Assembly: GCA_023954355.1 (NCBI GenBank)
Contig: JAMLID010000013.1
Coordinates: 1-64,000 of the forward strand
Direction: 5' to 3'
Origin: Oligoflexia bacterium
GTDB lineage: Bacteria > Bdellovibrionota > UBA1018 > CAIPTA01
Length of the DNA: 64,000 nt
Position numbers and translations under genes: made by a program. This document shows positions 5,997 through 15,664 of this stretch, in pieces. Below the pieces are notes generated by a model. It had not been told where the DNA came from and did no database searches. It saw nothing but the letters and a program-made list of their open reading frames with translations. How positions within the stretch are numbered: the first letter of the stretch is position 1; the number at the start of each line of letters is the position of its first letter.

Positions 5997-7163
5997 ATGA
6001 TCCGCTTAGGTTTGTTCTTTTTCTTTTTTGCTTTTTCACAGTACGCGCTAGGTTCAACACTTAGCTCTTCTAGGGTTGAGCCAAGTTCTCTAGAAGAGCT
6101 AAGTGAATCTAAGCTTCTAACATTTTTTAAAAATAAAGAAATTTTGAAGCAGGGAGATGAGTTAATCCTATTTTCTCAAACCACATTTTTGCCAACCCAT
6201 AATGAGTTCTATCTAGAATCAACTCTCGATGGAGTGAAGGTAGATATGATGCAATCTAGTGAATCGCTATGGCTGTCTAAATTTTCTGCCTTTAGTGAAG
6301 TAAAAGAGCATCTCTATAGCGTGAATATTTTTGCCATGAATAAGAAAGAAAAAAATAGAACCGAAAATGCTTTAAAACAACTTAAAAAAGAACTTCGTCT
6401 ACTCAAGAAAGCACTTTTAGTAGAAACAGACCCTGCTCGTATAGAGGCTTTAGAGAAAGAAAAAGCACAAAAAGAAGCGTATCGCGATTCTTTAGAAGAG
6501 GCTTTGGAGAATTTAAAAGTATTTGTAAAAACCGAAAGTTTTTCTTTTTCAGTAGAACAAAATACAGAGAATGGAAATTTTCCTTATCTTACGGCGATAT
6601 CACCTGGAGTTGGCTTAAATATTGGTGGCGGAGTATTAACGCTTTCTGGATTTAATTTTCTACCCAATTCGATAGTTAAAATTGGCGGAGTAAATGCGAG
6701 CGTTCTAAGCGAGAGTGCAAGTTCAATTCAAGTGATTTCTCCAACATTTGCTACCTTAGGCGTAAAAGAAGTAGAAGTCTCTTACCCTGTTGAGCAAAAA
6801 AATACTGTTTTAAAAAATTCATTCACCGTAACAGACCAAGGTATTTTGAAAAACTTAAGGCCTGTGGCTAATGCTCAAACCTATGTGACAGCGATACACC
6901 CTGTAACTAATCCAGTAGCACTAGATGCTTCTACTTCGTATGATGAAAATAATCCGAACGAGCTAGACTATGTCTGGACGGTAATTACTGCTCCCAATAA
7001 CTCAGGAGTCGTACCTGGAAGTACGTTGCCTAATCAGCCTAATCCTTCAGTGATGCCTGGGAAAAAAGGAACATACGTCTTTGAATTACGAGTGAGAGAG
7101 TCTAGCACCTCAGAACACTTAGAGAGTTTACCAATCAATATTATTTTAGAGGTCACAAAATGA
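5997..7163 (+). CDS. Exported protein: split coiled-coil module + IPT/TIG + PKD-like domain
   Basis: First gene of a four-gene operon of exported proteins, 388 aa. A Sec signal peptide (about residues 1-19, Phe-rich core, cleavage after Y-A-L-G) is followed by the shared module at about 49-187. The module has a beta-rich part with QGDELILFSQ and Y-S-V-N-I-F, interrupted by a charged helical hairpin at 117-175 with a V-E-T-D-P turn, and ends with an alternating strand, FSFSVE. Residues 196-279 look like an IPT/TIG immunoglobulin-like domain (ISPGVGLNIGGG, GFNF, IKIGG-type pattern), and 289-386 like a PKD/REJ-type domain (ANAQTYV, LDASTSYD, YVWTV, GTYVFEL). The exact function is unknown; architecture suggests adhesion or assembly at the cell surface. 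The stop overlaps the next start (ATGA). Confidence 0.82.
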   Translation: MIRLGLFFFFFAFSQYALGSTLSSSRVEPSSLEELSESKLLTFFKNKEILKQGDELILFSQTTFLPTHNEFYLESTLDGVKVDMMQSSESLWLSKFSAFSEVKEHLYSVNIFAMNKKEKNRTENALKQLKKELRLLKKALLVETDPARIEALEKEKAQKEAYRDSLEEALENLKVFVKTESFSFSVEQNTENGNFPYLTAISPGVGLNIGGGVLTLSGFNFLPNSIVKIGGVNASVLSESASSIQVISPTFATLGVKEVEVSYPVEQKNTVLKNSFTVTDQGILKNLRPVANAQTYVTAIHPVTNPVALDASTSYDENNPNELDYVWTVITAPNNSGVVPGSTLPNQPNPSVMPGKKGTYVFELRVRESSTSEHLESLPINIILEVTK

Positions 7164-7693
7164 AGCATGCGTTAAGTCTATTCTTATTATCTATTAGTTT
7201 ATTTAACCCCACTGTAAGAGCCACTGAAGTTCTGGACACAAAAATCATTGAAACCTATGTGGATGCTACTTACGATGAGGGAGACTCTGCGATTCTTAGA
7301 ACGCAGTTTTTCTCTAAACCCGATAATCAAAATCTAGAGTTTGATCTTATTAGCAAAATTAATGATGTAGAAATTTCTGTTCACAGAATAAATGATTTTG
7401 AAATCTTTTCTACCCTAGAAGATTTAGCCATCGGATCTTATACCTGGGCTGTACAAGTCGTTTTACAAGATAAACGCCTAGCCACAGATTTGAAAATAAG
7501 CCTAACTAACTTTGCCAATCGAATTTCAGAAATTGATACTGAATTATTAGATGCAACTGATCCCGAAGAAATTGCAGACCTAGAGGCCGAGAGAGCAGAA
7601 CTAGTAGAACTATCTTCTACGGTTCAAGATCAGTTAACAAAAATTAGAACCCCCTTCTTAAACCCCATTACTAAAACCTTTATCGTAGAATAG
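7160..7693 (+). CDS. Exported protein consisting of the split coiled-coil module alone
   Basis: This 177-aa protein has a signal peptide (residues 1-21, ending V-R-A) and then little more than the module shared by all four operon products (about 30-177). Visible parts are DEGDSAILRTQF (strands), IGSYTWAVQVVLQDKR (strand leading into the hairpin), a helical hairpin at about 104-165 with A-T-D-P-E-E-I at its turn, and TKTFIVE as the final strand. Because the module stands alone here, this protein best defines its limits. Translation is coupled to the preceding gene through an ATGA overlap, and the next gene follows after 8 nt. No function is recognised; it may be an adaptor or subunit binding the same modules in its neighbours (inference). 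Confidence 0.8.
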   Translation: MKHALSLFLLSISLFNPTVRATEVLDTKIIETYVDATYDEGDSAILRTQFFSKPDNQNLEFDLISKINDVEISVHRINDFEIFSTLEDLAIGSYTWAVQVVLQDKRLATDLKISLTNFANRISEIDTELLDATDPEEIADLEAERAELVELSSTVQDQLTKIRTPFLNPITKTFIVE

Positions 7694-7701
7694 GAAATTT
7701 T

Positions 7702-10644
7702 ATGAATTTTTTAAAAATCATCATCACTGTAGCGATAGCTTTATCTTTTTCCTTCAATTTGGAGGCAAAACCTACTAAGCAAGCCATAAGTCATCATAAA
7801 AAATCTGTACGATTTTCTCACGAGACAAATAAAAAAGTAGAAAGCCTTATTACGAAAATCCAAAACCGCATCTCAAAAGCGCGCTCACAAGTCAGTGACT
7901 CTTTATTTAAATTTTATCTTTCTCCTGAAAATCCCAAACAGGGCGAAGAGATTACTTTCTTTTTGCAACCAAGCTCTGGATTTACTGATCAAGAGAGCAT
8001 TGCCGAGGCAAGCTTTGAAAATACATCACTTGTATTAAATAAATACGGTGTTGATTTATTTGTTGGTGAAATTCTACCGCAATCTGAAATTCGCACCTAT
8101 AATTTAACGACTAAATTATATTTACAGGATAAATCTCAAGCGAAAGAAATTCGAGACTCTATTCTTATTTTAGAAGCTGAAATTCAGTCTCTAAATGATC
8201 AAATAGAAGAAGAAAGTGACCCGGATGTTCTTGAGCAGTTAATTGAAGAACGTGATGCAAAAATTGCTCTTAAAGATCAGCTCGTTGATGCATTAGAGAA
8301 TTTAAGACAACCAGTAGGGGAAGAAAATTTTTCTATAAAGGTAGAAGCAGAAGAAGATGATTTAACACTTCCAAAAGCTGTAGGTCTAAGCCCTGAGGTT
8401 ATAAATCCAAATACTACGGTTAATATTACTATTGATGGACTAAATTTTGATTATAACGCTCTTACCCCAGTTGTTATTTTAGGAGGAGTAGAAGCAAATA
8501 TTATAAGCATTAACTCTAATTCTATTCTTATATCTACAAGCCTAACAGGTCTTGGTATGCAAGATTTAGAGCTTCGCTATACTGATTCTGAAGGTAAAAT
8601 TACAAATTCTTATTTGAAAAATGCGCTTTTTGTAACAGATCAAGACCTTGGAGGTGGAGGAGGCGAAGTTTCACCCACAGCTCCGGTTGCCATCAATAAA
8701 GCCGTAAACACAAATATAAACTTAGGAGATTTAGCAGAATTTTCTTCTACAGGCTCATACGATATCAATAGCGATACGTTTTCTTATAGTTATCGATTAA
8801 TTTCAAAGCCAAGTGGCTCTTTATTAATGGTACCTACGAACCCGCCGGGTACTGACCCTAGCTATACGTTCACGCCAGATGTACCTGGAACCTATGTAAC
8901 AGAATTGGTGCTTCAAGATAATTCTGCTTTAAATTTAACAAGTGAGCCTAGCCTTGCTGTAGTTCAAGTGGCAGAAGGTACAAATCACCAGCCTGTTTTA
9001 AGTGCTAATGCTATAAATGTAGTGATTGATAGTTCTGGTACAACGCAAGTAAATGTAAGTGATCAAGACTTTTGGCAAAGACATGCCTATGTCATTACAA
9101 AGCAGGGAAGCTTAGGAACAGCTATCGTTTCTTCAAATGGCGTAGTTACCTATAATGCTGGATCAAATACAGGTACAGATCAAATTGAAGTGACTGCAAT
9201 CGATGATGGCGTGCCACAAATGATGGGTTCTGTAAATATCCCAATAAATATCATTGGTGGAAACTCAGCACCTCAAATGGACTTTATGTATAAGCTTCAG
9301 TACCTCGATGGAACTCCCATTCGTGTAGGTATAGGAGTAAACTCTCTTACTGATCCAGATGGAAATTTAAAATGTGTAAAAATTAATTTTGGCGATGGAT
9401 CAGAAGAGTTTGATGATAATAATGATGGTTTCTTATTTCATGAATATCGTCTTCCTGGAAGCTATACAGTTACCATTACAGCTGAAGATACTCTTGGGGC
9501 GATATCGACGCTGACGGATACTGTGGCTATTGTCCAAACAGATATCCCTCACCCTATTTTCCACGTGGATACTTTTAGTGGAACAACACCCTTAACTGTA
9601 AACTTTGATGCTTCAACTGCTAGTGATAGTGATGGCATTACAAGCTACCGTTGGAGGTTTGGAGATGGAACACCTGAGCTTAATGGCAACTATCCAACTA
9701 TAGCTCATACATTTACTAACCCAGGTGTTTATAACGTAAGGTTTAGAGTAAGAGATCAATATGCTTCAAATGGAGAGGCCTTTGTTCAAGTTTATGCGGG
9801 AGTTTCAGCCCCTCTAGAAGGCTCAAAACCAAATGCCTACTATATAGCAAACCCAAGTCGAGAAAATATACTTTCTCAATCAGTAAGCTTTGATGCGGGT
9901 AAATCATTTGATCCAAATCCATCAGGCTCAATTACGAATTATTCATGGCAGATGAATGATTGGCTTGGTTGTCCATTGGATGGATGTACATATTCAGGGC
10001 AAAACGTTAGTCATACGTTTAGTAATCCAACGAATTACTTCGTAGGTCTACAGGTAACTGGAGCCCTTGGAGCATTATCAAATTATCACTACCAAGAAGT
10101 TTTTGCTGTAAACCAAGGGATTGCGCCAAAAGCAATTATTGCAGCAAATACGCTTCAAGGAGTGGCACCGTTACAAGTTCAAGTAGACGGTACTAGATCT
10201 TATGATCTTGATGGTTCGATTGATCACTATCTATGGTATTTTGATGATTATAGTGCTTGCCCTACGGATGGCTGTTATTCTGAATTACCAATGGAGTCAC
10301 ATACCTATGTTGACCCAGGGGTTTATTTCTTAAATCTTACAGCGTTTGATAATGATGAAAACTTTTACAATCAGAATCAAACGGTGACGGTATACCCTTC
10401 ATATACTGAAATGGCAAAAGCCATATCTAAGAAAATAAAGGTTCTTAGTGATGATGAAGATAATGAAGAGCGCTTAAGAAGAAAGAAAAATCTTACAGGA
10501 GCTTGTGCTAGAAAAAATGCAGAAGCTTGCTACTACCTTGGCCTCATGTTTGAAGAAGAAGGCGATACATATACCAAGACAAAACTTTTCGAAAGATCAT
10601 GTAGCTTGGGTTATCAGCCAGCTTGTGGAACATTTGCGAAATAA
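7702..10644 (+). CDS. Large exported multi-domain protein: split module, IPT/TIG, PKD repeats, Hcp-like Sel1 tail
   Basis: A 980-aa exported protein (signal peptide 1-22, ending L-E-A). Order of parts: shared split module about 64-218, with helical hairpin 141-203 and turn E-S-D-P; IPT/TIG-like domain 224-313; Gly-rich linker GGGGGE near 317; a PKD/REJ-like domain about 327-424; a cadherin/Big-like domain about 430-520; then four PKD-type domains at about 525-612, 617-700, 708-803 and 808-900 (INFGDGS, WRFGDGT, WQMND, WYFDD strands). The last two PKD domains each carry a C-P-x-D-G-C insertion. Residues 925-978 resemble Sel1-like repeats with paired Cys eight residues apart, as in secreted Hcp proteins. 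This reads as an extended surface protein. No enzyme motif is seen. It is the third gene of the operon. Confidence 0.85.
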   Translation: MNFLKIIITVAIALSFSFNLEAKPTKQAISHHKKSVRFSHETNKKVESLITKIQNRISKARSQVSDSLFKFYLSPENPKQGEEITFFLQPSSGFTDQESIAEASFENTSLVLNKYGVDLFVGEILPQSEIRTYNLTTKLYLQDKSQAKEIRDSILILEAEIQSLNDQIEEESDPDVLEQLIEERDAKIALKDQLVDALENLRQPVGEENFSIKVEAEEDDLTLPKAVGLSPEVINPNTTVNITIDGLNFDYNALTPVVILGGVEANIISINSNSILISTSLTGLGMQDLELRYTDSEGKITNSYLKNALFVTDQDLGGGGGEVSPTAPVAINKAVNTNINLGDLAEFSSTGSYDINSDTFSYSYRLISKPSGSLLMVPTNPPGTDPSYTFTPDVPGTYVTELVLQDNSALNLTSEPSLAVVQVAEGTNHQPVLSANAINVVIDSSGTTQVNVSDQDFWQRHAYVITKQGSLGTAIVSSNGVVTYNAGSNTGTDQIEVTAIDDGVPQMMGSVNIPINIIGGNSAPQMDFMYKLQYLDGTPIRVGIGVNSLTDPDGNLKCVKINFGDGSEEFDDNNDGFLFHEYRLPGSYTVTITAEDTLGAISTLTDTVAIVQTDIPHPIFHVDTFSGTTPLTVNFDASTASDSDGITSYRWRFGDGTPELNGNYPTIAHTFTNPGVYNVRFRVRDQYASNGEAFVQVYAGVSAPLEGSKPNAYYIANPSRENILSQSVSFDAGKSFDPNPSGSITNYSWQMNDWLGCPLDGCTYSGQNVSHTFSNPTNYFVGLQVTGALGALSNYHYQEVFAVNQGIAPKAIIAANTLQGVAPLQVQVDGTRSYDLDGSIDHYLWYFDDYSACPTDGCYSELPMESHTYVDPGVYFLNLTAFDNDENFYNQNQTVTVYPSYTEMAKAISKKIKVLSDDEDNEERLRRKKNLTGACARKNAEACYYLGLMFEEEGDTYTKTKLFERSCSLGYQPACGTFAK

Positions 10645-10657
10645 GAAGGGATAAAAA

Positions 10658-13600
10658 ATGAAAAGAATAATTTTTCTAATTGGAACCTTTCTAGCTCTGC
10701 CGGTCTTCGCAAGCATGCCGACGAATACACATTATAAATATACGAAGGTGTATGAGGCTGCCTTTGCAGAGTCAGTTAGTTCAAAGCCTGCGATTAATTC
10801 AGAGCGAGATATCGTTTTCTTTAGAACAAACGTTAGTGGTGTGCAGCAGATTGTTTTATCTCCAGCTAATTCAGATGGTACAAGAGGAAGCCCAATAATA
10901 GTTGCTGATAGTACTCCTGGGATGAGTTTTGAGTTTGTTCAAAATGGCTTGCTTACAGAAAATAAAGAAATTTCTTTTAAATCAAAAAAAAATAAACTAA
11001 AAAAATTAGCTGCAGGAGATGCTGAGCCAGTAATATCTAGTCGAACTGGTAATTTTGTTTATATTGCATACTATGAAGGTGCTGGCATTGATGGCCATCC
11101 AATACCCCAAGTATCTGAGGCCTGTGGAACTATCTCATCACAAGTTTCATGGACTATGAGGTTTAATCTTTATAGAGCAAGGGTAAACATAGTAACTGGG
11201 GAAGTAGAAAAGACCTTAATCTTGGCAACTGGAAAATCATATTGCGATGGGCCAAGATACGATGTTGTATCTATACAGGCACCATTTTCAATTAATTCTT
11301 CTGGCCAAGTTGCTATCTCTGCCTATGTACACAGGCGAGAAGAGTTTTCTGTTAATGCATTTAGGCACATTTTAGTTTCTAGCCCTAGTGATCCTGCCGG
11401 TATCACAGGTATTCCACGGCCAAGAGTGGTTGTAGCAAGACATACCACGGAAGATGAAGGTGGCTATATATTTCACTCTTCACATGGATCTCCTCAGATT
11501 AATGATCTAGGTGATATTGCATTGCTAGCGACCTCATATGTTCCTGAAACCAATCCGCAAGTTGAAGGGAAGTTTTTATACTTTATTCCTAGTAATACAA
11601 GTACCTTAAAAAGACTAGCGGTAGAATCTAATGGATTGGATCCTGGTCATTATGCTCAGTTAAGTGGTAGGCCTTCTATTAATAACAGCAAACAAGTTGC
11701 TCTTTTTATAAGAAAAACAGAGGGAGAATTTCAGAATCCAGGAATTTTAATTGCAAATGCTAGTTGCGGTAGAAGTGGACAACCGAATTGCCCTCAAGGA
11801 GAGGAAGATTTTGATTGGATCATTGGTGATACAAGAAACAATGAAAATAAAATTATTGAAAAATATCAAGGGGAGTTTAAGGAGTATTCAAGAGATATTT
11901 TGCTAGGAGATAAAGCTACTAAAAAAAGTGGAGCAAATAATTCGGTGCTGTTTCCATATATGCAAGGATTTTCTTTTGGTGCAAATTCTTATGTGGAAAA
12001 AAGTAATAACGGCAATGAAGTTGGCGGAGAAATAATTGAAGACTCTATTTTTAGTTCTAATTTTTACAATCCTGATGGTGGGTTAATTTTACGCATGGGG
12101 AGTCGAATCAAAGGTCAAAATAATGACTTGATAGTTGATTACATAGGCTCTGGCAGATACAGCAATAATAAAAATGGTACGCTTGCCGTAGCAATTCAAG
12201 CTATTAGCCCTACTGAACCAATTGTGGAATTTGTTGATGCAATCTATGAGATTAGACCGTGTGAGGCTGATGGTGTTTGTATAGACTTTGGGCAAGCTAC
12301 ATTTGCTCCAGATGTGAATGGTGATGGAGTAGTGGATTTGTTGAGGCATAGACCAGTTGTAGCCCGTGTTAAGTTAACTGATAGCTCTAATGGTCTTGCT
12401 AAATCAATTGAAGCGATTCCCGATCCACTTTTTGTTGGAAGTGAGCCGTATTCTGCAAAAATCGGAGGCTCTGATTTTTCTGATTCTACTTATTATGAAA
12501 TCCCTGAATTCCTTGCTCTTAATAGTCAGTTAGACTTTTCATTCAGCACTACTATTGATAATGAAACGCATGCAAAAAGTGGTCACGTTGATATTTGGAC
12601 AAGAAAAAATAATAATTTCACGATTACGTATCTACCTTTGAATTGTCCAGTTTTCTTAAACTCTGCAACGAGTTGCGTAACTCCAGTGGTAGTTAATCCA
12701 AGTCTATTCGAGACGAAAAGTGTTTTGAATTTCAAGCAAATGTTTCCGGTATTGGAAGCGGATGTAGACTCAAAATTAATACCAGAAAGAAAAAATTCTT
12801 CGGGTATAACTGGGTTTGATGGAGTAGTAAATGATATCAAGAAGGTTTGGTTTGAAGCTAAAAATGCAAGTAGTAGAGGTTTTTATACGACAAGAGCAGG
12901 TATTGGAATAGTTCCAGACGGATACTTTGTCCATCGATTCGGAAATTCGAGCAGCAGCTTTAGTGGATATACTGTTCGTCCTATTAATGAGACGAAGAAA
13001 TTCGATTTAAAATTTGCCGATTTTGCTAGTTTGGTGGAAGAAAGTTATTTTGAATCATCAACACACGAATTTACTCATCTGTTTAGTCCTATTGGAGATT
13101 ACGCAAAAAAGCATATAGGGCGCGCAACGGTAGACGGCTATAACTTTTTCGTATCGGGCGAGCAAGTTCCTGCACCTGTTTGGAGGAGTCAAGAGATATT
13201 TCAAGCAGTTGATGGGCCAATAGGTCGTAGATGGCCAGGCAATCACTCGTGGGTAGATAACTTTATGGCACTTAATAAAAGATACATCGTTCTTAATGAG
13301 ACAAAAAAATTAGATTCAAATATTGAAAATATAGTTTTTGGATTTATTTTTGGAAGCAATTCTGTGCAATCAGTTGAAGGACTAAGGCAAACTGGGATAG
13401 AAGAATCCTATGAAGGTGATTCGAATCTGAGGGCAATTGTAAGAAATGCAAAAGGTGAGATAACAAAAAATATTCCACTACCAGCTGAATTTGAAGCTGA
13501 AGCATTAGTTGTAAACGAAGAAAACGGTAGTATATCTAAAAAACATTTTGATGTTAACTCCGGTCCATATGTTTTAAGTATTCCAGTTTCCATTTACGAC

Positions 13601-14425
13601 GCTAGTTATTCAATTGAGCTAAACGGGAGCCCTATTTTTTCAGAAAATATAAACCTACACGTCTTAGACACAATGATTGATTATATTCCAGATGATGGTT
13701 TTAAATCGAACCCAGAATTGAGTAGAGCAAATCTAAAAAATGCACTAGTGTCGTCAAAGAGCAAGGCAGCTAATTCAGACTATTCTGGTGCATCAATAGA
13801 TTTAAATAATAACTTTAAAAAATTGGTTAATCGTTTAGTCATAAATGTATCAAATAAGAAGTCAGAAGATGTTTTAGGTGTAAGATTTTATCTAGCTGAT
13901 ATTCTAGCTGAGGTTTCAACTGCAACCCAACGATTAGCGATCTCAGCTTCTGATGCGAATCAGCCAGTTCAATTGTTTGAAATTTCTTCAGATAAAGACA
14001 GTTATTCTAGCGGTGAAAGAGCGATTATAAAAGCACAAGAAATTATATCATTAGATGACAAAGAGTACGAATATGCATTAGTGGCAAAAGTAGATGGAAA
14101 TCCTCAACGAATAGATCGTATAAACGAAAAATTATTTCAATCGGAGACATCATCTCTTAGCACTGGTTTGCACGTATTTAGCATAGAGGTATTCAAGCAA
14201 AATAAACGGTTTGCAAAAAATATAGAAGAATCTATAAATAAAGTAGATGGTGAGATTTTATTTATAGATAGAGAATTAGAAAGAGAAACCGATCAAAGTA
14301 AAATAGATAAATTAGTAAAGAGGAGAAACCTTTTGCTACAGAGAAATGAATATTTGAAGAATAAACTCCAATCACAAAGAAAAAAATTAGGTTTAGAATA
14401 TGTATTTGAGTTTAATGTGAACTAA
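10658..14425 (+). CDS. Large exported putative zinc metallopeptidase with N-terminal propeller-like repeats and C-terminal split module
   Basis: A 1255-aa exported protein (signal peptide about 1-18, ending V-F-A). The N-terminal 350 residues carry spaced motifs such as PAINSERDIVF, FSINSSGQVAI, PQINDLGDIAL and PSINNSKQVAL. These resemble the I-N-x-x-G-x-V-A repeats of beta-propeller-like extracellular proteins. A DVNGDGVVD stretch (near 555) looks like a Ca2+ loop. At residues 803-807 lies H-E-F-T-H, a zincin HExxH motif, after S-S-T and before LFSPIGDYAKKH; the third ligand is not identified. Residues about 1106-1255 are the shared split module with helical hairpin 1184-1243 and turn E-T-D-Q. 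It is the last gene of the operon. Protease activity is inferred from the motif and export only. Confidence 0.75.
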   Translation: MKRIIFLIGTFLALPVFASMPTNTHYKYTKVYEAAFAESVSSKPAINSERDIVFFRTNVSGVQQIVLSPANSDGTRGSPIIVADSTPGMSFEFVQNGLLTENKEISFKSKKNKLKKLAAGDAEPVISSRTGNFVYIAYYEGAGIDGHPIPQVSEACGTISSQVSWTMRFNLYRARVNIVTGEVEKTLILATGKSYCDGPRYDVVSIQAPFSINSSGQVAISAYVHRREEFSVNAFRHILVSSPSDPAGITGIPRPRVVVARHTTEDEGGYIFHSSHGSPQINDLGDIALLATSYVPETNPQVEGKFLYFIPSNTSTLKRLAVESNGLDPGHYAQLSGRPSINNSKQVALFIRKTEGEFQNPGILIANASCGRSGQPNCPQGEEDFDWIIGDTRNNENKIIEKYQGEFKEYSRDILLGDKATKKSGANNSVLFPYMQGFSFGANSYVEKSNNGNEVGGEIIEDSIFSSNFYNPDGGLILRMGSRIKGQNNDLIVDYIGSGRYSNNKNGTLAVAIQAISPTEPIVEFVDAIYEIRPCEADGVCIDFGQATFAPDVNGDGVVDLLRHRPVVARVKLTDSSNGLAKSIEAIPDPLFVGSEPYSAKIGGSDFSDSTYYEIPEFLALNSQLDFSFSTTIDNETHAKSGHVDIWTRKNNNFTITYLPLNCPVFLNSATSCVTPVVVNPSLFETKSVLNFKQMFPVLEADVDSKLIPERKNSSGITGFDGVVNDIKKVWFEAKNASSRGFYTTRAGIGIVPDGYFVHRFGNSSSSFSGYTVRPINETKKFDLKFADFASLVEESYFESSTHEFTHLFSPIGDYAKKHIGRATVDGYNFFVSGEQVPAPVWRSQEIFQAVDGPIGRRWPGNHSWVDNFMALNKRYIVLNETKKLDSNIENIVFGFIFGSNSVQSVEGLRQTGIEESYEGDSNLRAIVRNAKGEITKNIPLPAEFEAEALVVNEENGSISKKHFDVNSGPYVLSIPVSIYDASYSIELNGSPIFSENINLHVLDTMIDYIPDDGFKSNPELSRANLKNALVSSKSKAANSDYSGASIDLNNNFKKLVNRLVINVSNKKSEDVLGVRFYLADILAEVSTATQRLAISASDANQPVQLFEISSDKDSYSSGERAIIKAQEIISLDDKEYEYALVAKVDGNPQRIDRINEKLFQSETSSLSTGLHVFSIEVFKQNKRFAKNIEESINKVDGEILFIDRELERETDQSKIDKLVKRRNLLLQRNEYLKNKLQSQRKKLGLEYVFEFNVN

Positions 14426-14514: not shown

Positions 14515-14901
14515 ATGAAGAGCATTTTAAATAGTGTTTGGAGTAAAAATTTAACAATATTTGTCATTTTATTATTCGCTAACATTGATGCACTTGCAGG
14601 TTGTAAGCCGGGTCATGAAGGACCATGTAACGATGTAGGTTATATTTCTGATGATTATGTTTTTGTCGAAGAAAAACCAAAGACCACCGCTTCGAAAACA
14701 AATACTTCAACTGTTACAGAAGAAGCTACGAGCAAAATTGAAATTACTTCTTCAACTAATACAATTAATTCTGATCATATAGTAGATAAAAAAAATGACG
14801 AGAACCAAACTTCTGTTCCGATCTTAGTATTGTATGGGGTCATTGCTGCAATTTTAGGCGGTATTGGAGTCAAACTTTTCCTTTTCAGTAAGAATAAGTA
14901 A
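14515..14901 (+). CDS. Small exported Thr/Ser-rich protein with C-terminal membrane anchor
   Basis: This 128-aa protein is not recognised. It has a signal peptide (about residues 1-28, ending A-L-A), a short Cys-containing segment GCKPGHEGPCNDVG, a long Ser/Thr/Asn/Lys-rich and probably unstructured stretch (about 52-98), and one hydrophobic helix (101-123) followed by FSKNK. The layout is of a type I membrane protein with a small extracytoplasmic domain on a flexible stalk and a very short basic cytoplasmic tail. GAAAGG lies 8 nt before the ATG. A TTGACT sequence at 14463-14468 could be a -35 element, though a good -10 is not obvious. It follows the surface-protein operon after a gap of 89 nt and may belong to the same accessory block. 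Confidence 0.7.
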   Translation: MKSILNSVWSKNLTIFVILLFANIDALAGCKPGHEGPCNDVGYISDDYVFVEEKPKTTASKTNTSTVTEEATSKIEITSSTNTINSDHIVDKKNDENQTSVPILVLYGVIAAILGGIGVKLFLFSKNK

Positions 14902-15343: not shown

Positions 15344-15664
15344 ATGCTAAAAAACTTTAAATGCTATCAATTAGCCGTTGAGCTACATCAACAATGTTTA
15401 TTATTAAAAGTTCCCTCTTATTTAAAAGATCAACTTTTTCGTGCTTCAAGTTCTGTAGCGTTAAATCTTGCTGAAGGCTCAGCAAAACCAACAAATCGAG
15501 ATAAAATTAAATTTTATTATATTGCTCTGGGTTCGCTTCGTGAAACTCAGGCCGCATTAGAGTTTATCAATTCAGAAAAGTCAGAAGTTTTATTATTAGC
15601 CGATAAACTTGGCGCTCATATCTATAAACTTATTCAAGCAAAGCTAAAGGCTAGAAAATGGTAA
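15344..15664 (+). CDS. Four-helix-bundle protein (23S rRNA IVP / Avd family)
   Basis: This 106-aa protein belongs to the S23/IVP four-helix-bundle family, seen in proteins encoded by intervening sequences in 23S rRNA and in the Avd accessory protein of diversity-generating retroelements. The core signature is clear: Q-L-F-R-A-S-S-S-V-A-L-N-L-A-E-G near residues 29-45, then F-Y-Y-I-A-L-G-S-L-R-E-T-Q near 60. Members form barrel-like pentamers that bind nucleic acid (family knowledge). AAAGGGAG provides the ribosome-binding site. No 23S rRNA, reverse transcriptase or template/variable repeat is present, so its partner is unknown. The stop overlaps the start of a 43-aa membrane protein. Confidence 0.88.
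   Translation: MLKNFKCYQLAVELHQQCLLLKVPSYLKDQLFRASSSVALNLAEGSAKPTNRDKIKFYYIALGSLRETQAALEFINSEKSEVLLLADKLGAHIYKLIQAKLKARKW

Follow-up and report, generated by a model that had tools for sequence, protein, structure and literature searches.

Two described systems frame the locus reported here. The first is GlgE: in the M. thermoresistibile enzyme, domain N is formed by residues 1-122 and 205-220, the helical domain S occupies residues 123-204, and most contacts of the GlgE dimer come from domain N, with a contribution from domain S (PMC4663749). The second is Bd0109, an RHS protein of Bdellovibrio bacteriovorus, which two papers implicate in pilus control and the lifestyle switch (PMC3818213, PMC4267844) and one of them proposes to encapsulate Bd0108 (PMC4267844). 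We analyzed a 64,000-nucleotide window (contig JAMLID010000013.1, positions 1-64,000) of an Oligoflexia bacterium of the Bdellovibrionota, in which four consecutive genes (genes 1-4, 5997-14425) each encode a putatively exported protein with one copy of a shared module. Within the searches made, the module is an undescribed domain family at the level of the immunoglobulin (Ig)-like fold, and its recurrent gene cluster is likewise undescribed. We propose, with a probability of roughly 0.55, that the module serves in assembly (docking), holding several exported proteins together in one complex whose displayed part is an RHS cage, a propeller or a peptidase.

Genes 1-4 all lie on the forward strand with spacings of -4, 8 and 13 bp, so that they look like a single operon, and each product begins with a hydrophobic stretch that, by eye, resembles a Sec signal peptide. 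Gene 1 (5997-7163; 388 amino acids, aa) is predicted to contain a signal peptide, an alpha-type module (aa 39-189; subtypes are described below), an IPT/TIG domain and a PKD-like domain (Pfam: TIG, 2.1e-6; K319L-like PKD, 1.4e-5, slightly under the cut-off). Gene 2 (7160-7693; 177 aa) is a signal peptide plus one module (aa 28-177) with no other domain. In gene 3 (7702-10644; 980 aa), the signal peptide and an alpha-type module (aa 66-217) are followed by IPT/TIG, a Big_9-like domain, four PKD repeats and a Sel1-like tail recognized by eye. Gene 4 (10658-14425; 1255 aa) contains a signal peptide, an N-terminal half resembling DUF7453 below the cut-off, an HExxH region and a C-terminal module (aa 1103-1255). 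The initial annotation had placed the module at the N-terminus of genes 1 and 3, over most of gene 2 and at the C-terminus of gene 4, in agreement with the mapped bounds. Its "IPT/PKD fibre", in contrast, is unsupported.

Each of the four proteins has a single module of 150-153 residues, and the modules align end to end. We scored them pairwise against 500 full and 500 local shuffles, and all six pairs outscore every shuffle of both kinds (z 6-21), as expected if the four exported products share one common module. Similarity is highest between genes 1 and 3 (score 160, z 21) and between genes 2 and 4 (score 135, z 18), and the remaining four pairs score 82-98 (z 8-9); these last z values, 8-21 over all six pairs, are against full shuffles. 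When the helical hairpin is removed, significance persists for the beta part of 1-3, 1-4 and 2-4 and, weakly, of 1-2, indicating that the similarity is not merely one of coiled-coil composition. The beta part is not significant for 2-3 and 3-4, so homology of the whole set rests on the full-length segments and the profile. A hidden Markov model built from the four segments detects additional modules elsewhere in this genome as well as in others.

Using AlphaFold2 with 23 aligned modules, we obtained a model of the gene 2 module with a mean predicted local distance difference test score (pLDDT) of 93.9 and a predicted template modeling score (pTM) of 0.79. The model has strands at residues 11-14, 25-31, 40-48, 51-53, 62-67 and 73-85, and directly after the last of these come helices 86-112 and 116-143, followed by the last strand at 151-157. 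In the window, this hairpin corresponds to 7472-7645 (helices 7472-7552 and 7562-7645; last strand 7667-7687), and alignment to the gene 2 model places the hairpins of genes 1, 3 and 4 at 6342-6515, 8131-8304 and 14204-14377, within about 10 bases of the positions first proposed. The motifs proposed for the module mostly hold, but the gene 2 turn, A-T-D-P, falls outside [ET][ST]D[PQ], and the motif of the final strand is kept only loosely. The module is thus predicted to be an Ig-like sandwich with a two-helix hairpin (27+28 residues) immediately before its last strand, as the initial annotation had suggested. A natural two-module protein of Bdellovibrio sp. NC_groundwater_449 (L065) is modeled with the same pattern twice (pLDDT 90.3, pTM 0.78), and the pTM of the chain suggests a defined arrangement of its two modules.

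Foldseek searches against the PDB rank GlgE first (E 1.1e-5, probability 1.00), followed by generic Ig domains, and the matches to many Ig domains mark the sandwich as Ig-like in topology. Among the GlgE matches, the TM-score normalized by query is 0.36-0.44 and the root-mean-square deviation is 10-12 Å. At the sequence level, GlgE is absent from the best 25 of 65 families when 49 modules are scanned at E<=10 (within the limits of the HMMER filters), and no GlgE chain is among the PDB sequence matches to modules. By profile search, the PDB sequences matched are coiled coils and, weakly and over the sandwich, SiiE; we attribute the keratin, GCN4, lamin and fosB matches to coiled-coil composition. 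A viral fold library gives generic Ig matches, one of them at E<=0.001. For a CHU_C sorting domain, the genome gave no match, and neither did the controls of that search. Pfam, NCBIfam, PADLOC and PHROGs contain no convincing match to the module, weak PADLOC and PHROGs matches being judged chance coiled-coil similarity, and the absence of any curated Pfam or NCBIfam match fits the earlier statement that the module has no named domain. The initial annotation had named two outcomes that would speak against it, assignment of the segments to different known domains and lack of a common fold; the library searches gave no such assignment and AlphaFold2 gave no sign of divergent folds. We also considered the hairpin of HlyD/MFP periplasmic adaptors and dropped it, as the beta part is Ig-like with no lipoyl domain among the listed fold matches; no HlyD-type Pfam match is among those listed for modules. 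No description of the module was found in the literature searched, nor in the available parts of PMC3818213, PMC4267844 and PMC5941755.

We then asked how the module is distributed. The in-depth search covered Bdellovibrionota, and other phyla were screened by narrow patterns only. Of 369 Bdellovibrionota genomes, 11 carry clear full-length modules (G000, G045, G098, G195, G196, G197, G199, G202, G209, G211 and G233), among them Bdellovibrio sp. NC_groundwater_449 (G098) and Bdellovibrionales bacterium RIFOXYD1_FULL_53_11 (G045). The latter was the only other carrier among 58 relatives scanned, with nine copies at first pass. Ten of the 11 carriers have at least three clustered copies, consistent with the earlier proposal of a multi-gene system, whereas G233 has a single copy. 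This is a lone 172-aa module protein (L064, 7011-7529) that stands outside the clusters on a long branch. Within one genus, the module is found in seven of 24 species. Partial matches, limited to the helices or cut by contig edges, were left out for G121, G130, G192, G225, G238, G256, G258, G281 and G335; those of G121, at contig edges, may be real modules. Against wider genome contigs, the close-genus query A3 found nothing and query A4 found four loci, and narrow patterns gave no module match in viral contigs, plasmids or phages. In its own genome, the window accounts for four modules; two full modules each form the C-terminus of a gene 4 paralog on contig C39, which also carries fragments, and one belongs to an incomplete gene at the beginning of contig C71.

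A tree of 64 aligned modules, with ultrafast bootstrap (UFBoot) support, resolves subtypes. Genes 1 and 3 fall in alpha (15 sequences, UFBoot 99), as do proteins from G045, G098 and the g89 genus; gamma has 18 sequences (UFBoot 100), delta 4-5 (UFBoot 83-86), and beta, made up of the first modules of two-module proteins, 19 (UFBoot 59). Genes 2 and 4 group together between beta and alpha with low support (57-62), and we accordingly call them beta-like, which gives the window the module order alpha, beta-like, alpha, beta-like, the last at the C-terminus of gene 4. Since alpha has members from three lineages, it either predates their split or was transferred among them as part of a set. Across genomes, module identity is 22-28% within subtypes versus 15-18% between them. 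The subtypes also differ in the hairpin: gamma helix 2 has 11 hydrophobic positions out of 27, versus 4 (alpha), 5 (beta) and 7 (delta), which exceeds what an isolated pair of helices would require and fits burial in a larger bundle. The order of genes recurs as alpha protein, beta-gamma protein(s), delta protein, with RHS last in G045 (contig C37), G098 and G202. In the first locus of G196, in G197 and in G211 the RHS gene is upstream of the alpha gene, and in the second locus of G196 it is divergent.

This pattern bears on the simplest alternative, that the modules are unremarkable Ig-like paralogs whose helical insert has no meaning, spread by duplication and sharing no function. Ig-like domains are common and readily duplicated, and the window's own genome holds several gene 4 copies and a gene 3 remnant. 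Yet the insert sits at the same site in all 64 aligned copies from several lineages, and the subtypes are older than the divergence of the species, so that we regard this explanation as very improbable.

The module-free parts of these proteins are diverse. RCC1 propellers are present in G199 (Pfam) and, by eye, in G202, G209 and G211, a PQQ-type propeller is present in G045, and Pfam detects PKD, TIG, LamG, PEGA and CarboxypepD_reg domains. Two-module proteins with RCC1-type propellers and a repeated YCWG motif were observed at L055 (4707-7172), L056 (8806-11265), L057 (10575-13043) and L058 (6245-8683). In soil Bdellovibrio, proteins annotated as RTX toxins are noted to consist of RCC1-repeat proteins (PMC5941755). 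The last gene of the G209 cluster ends in M15-peptidase-like motifs (SGHQTGNSID and HVH), for which the Pfam match reaches an E-value of 0.14 only.

PKD, TIG and LamG domains and propellers are typical of adhesion, and the module could instead serve in adhesion or ligand recognition, having been copied along the operon; each protein would then bind a surface ligand such as prey envelope or polysaccharide alone, with the hairpin as a spacer and no complex formed. The patchy occurrence within the genus (seven of 24 species) would suit such binding, as would the adhesion molecules and SiiE among the Foldseek matches to the two-module model, but these matches are to generic Ig domains at low TM. 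Old, ordered subtypes in multi-copy clusters suggest a division of labor instead, and the lone module of gene 2 and the extra hydrophobic face of gamma hairpins also speak against independent binding. We therefore consider it rather unlikely.

We also examined the genes around the clusters. A gene with Pfam matches to RHS_repeat and/or TEN_YD-shell lies near the cluster in G045 (C37), at the second locus of G196, and in G197, G202 and G211; at the first locus of G196, the RHS gene is a few small genes away, and in both G098 clusters RHS/TEN_YD-shell is fused behind a delta module. In total, RHS is near or fused in eight of 10 judgeable clusters; those of G199, G195 and G045 C107 were not judged because of contig edges, and no RHS gene was found at the G209 or window cluster. 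In five complete chromosomes, an RHS match lies within 7 kb, a limit chosen after the loci had been seen, in five of six clusters versus ~0.08 expected, and none of 200,000 random placements with the same number of RHS loci reached five clusters within that distance. Modules are missing around many other RHS genes of the carrier genomes; the link thus runs one way only. Pfam matches of cluster neighbors at E<=0.01 include no toxin domain. The RHS protein of G045 C37 (L023, 1-4686) has an N-terminal Transglut_core domain (5.5e-10) ahead of DUF6531 and the RHS repeats. For the window itself, an RHS polymorphic-toxin locus is ruled out, as no RHS is present.

The RHS linkage could also mean that module proteins are chaperones or export or anchoring factors whose modules escort or cap the cage, much as the accessory proteins at a polymorphic-toxin locus would, with RHS or the last gene product as cargo. 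Besides the frequency and proximity of RHS at the clusters, the delta module fused N-terminally to RHS in G098 is compatible with such an escort, as are the 123-aa gene directly 3' of RHS in G211 and small genes near others, in positions that would suit immunity genes. However, the large displayed domains of module proteins (RCC1, PQQ, PKD) are not a feature of chaperones, modules are absent near many RHS genes of these genomes, and the window and G209 clusters lack RHS. An escort role thus seems quite unlikely to us.

We favor assembly because modules occur as clusters rather than singly in a genome, because the subtypes are old and ordered, because gene 2 is a module alone, as expected of a linker, because the gamma hairpin has extra hydrophobic positions, and because GlgE, by analogy, dimerizes through a similar split sandwich. 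In this scheme, the proteins of one operon, carrying different subtypes (alpha, beta, gamma, delta), would be exported through Sec, and their sandwiches and hairpins would pack together into a heteromeric complex at the cell surface or beyond it. Its working ends would be the parts without modules (beta-propellers, PKD/TIG/LamG domains and a toroid-like domain), and the last gene would supply a large functional protein, RHS/YD-shell in most relatives and the HExxH protein in the window. The analysis establishes homology, the predicted fold, clustering, the age of the subtypes and the proximity of RHS in relatives; Sec export (from signal peptides recognized by eye), a location outside, docking through the hairpins and a part in predation or competition are inferred.

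Several points weigh against assembly. With its low TM-score and high deviation, the likeness to GlgE is an analogy of topology only. Paralogous modules may also arise by duplication without binding one another. The only RHS matches of the window's own genome are on contig C18, away from an RHS-free window cluster, the 7 kb limit was set post hoc, and genes 2 and 4 are weakly placed in the tree. More tentatively, and at somewhat less than even odds, we suggest that this is an undescribed extracellular system of Bdellovibrionota in which subtype-specific hairpins interlock as a heteromeric platform that displays an exchangeable end-piece, be it an RHS cage, a propeller or a peptidase, and may serve in contacts with prey or competing cells.

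The candidate working end in the window is gene 4, whose putative zinc-peptidase motif HEFTHLF (aa 803-809) lies at 13064-13084 on the forward strand. Two more near-full copies of gene 4 (59-61% identity) are present on contig C39, and HE-x-x-H is invariant across the three copies, while the flanking region is among the protein's more variable parts. Pfam and PDB searches gave no family match backing the peptidase call. Across the copies, alignment columns ~200-500 are well conserved and columns ~600-900 are only ~35-55% identical. The C39 locus (L019/L020; 15254-18967, 18981-19445 and 20209-23877) consists of two gene 4 paralogs in tandem with a gene 3 remnant, 154 aa of the C-terminus that are nearly identical to the window copy.

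Downstream of gene 4, gene 5 (14515-14901, forward strand; 128 aa) encodes a signal peptide, a Ser/Thr-rich linker and a C-terminal hydrophobic helix, without a module. Near gene 4 paralogs, in the window (gene 5) and at L019 (3224-4042 and 2504-3013), there are small exported proteins that have a Ser/Thr-rich linker, a C-terminal hydrophobic helix or both; one of the C39 proteins has an additional domain. Given these relatives on C39, we guess that gene 5 is a companion of the gene 1-4 system, and proteins of this kind are possible anchors. Near-identical 106-aa proteins, which we take to be of the four-helix-bundle/23S intervening-sequence type, are encoded at 15344-15664 in the window and at 1710-2030 of L021, in each case 3' of gene 5 or a gene-5-like reading frame (window and C71 module locus), which suggests a duplication of the cluster tail.

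These results describe a domain unnamed in the libraries searched and a recurrent gene cluster built on it, tied genomically to RHS proteins in a phylum of predatory bacteria. Thus, the partners of exported RHS proteins in these bacteria become a testable question. The fold has precedent, and it is the module's function that we infer. Among Ig-type Pfam families, MtxA_IG-like (PF22433) is the most repeated match to modules: it resembles the sandwich of the gene 4 module weakly (E 9e-4, 19.5 bits), but this is below the curated cut-off of 26, three of 18 modules are matched and the hairpin is not covered. Likewise, the bacterial Ig domains of SiiE (PDB 2yn3) share the Ig-like fold of an exported adhesin and give a profile match to the sandwich (E 0.013), but the match is limited to the sandwich and excludes the hairpin. 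GlgE may be regarded as the nearest structural precedent, by topology, and as a hint of association: its domains N and S (PDB 3zss, 5cgm) likewise form a beta-sandwich whose last segment is placed after a helical insertion. However, domain S has four helices versus two in the module, and GlgE is a metabolic enzyme with a GH13 catalytic domain downstream, whereas Pfam scans of the window and neighbor proteins contain no GH13. Compared with Bd0109, for which the available portions of PMC3818213 and PMC4267844 describe no Ig-hairpin partner, the window differs in having no RHS gene, and its relatives resemble the described system in encoding RHS/YD-shell secreted proteins, here adjoining or fused to module genes.

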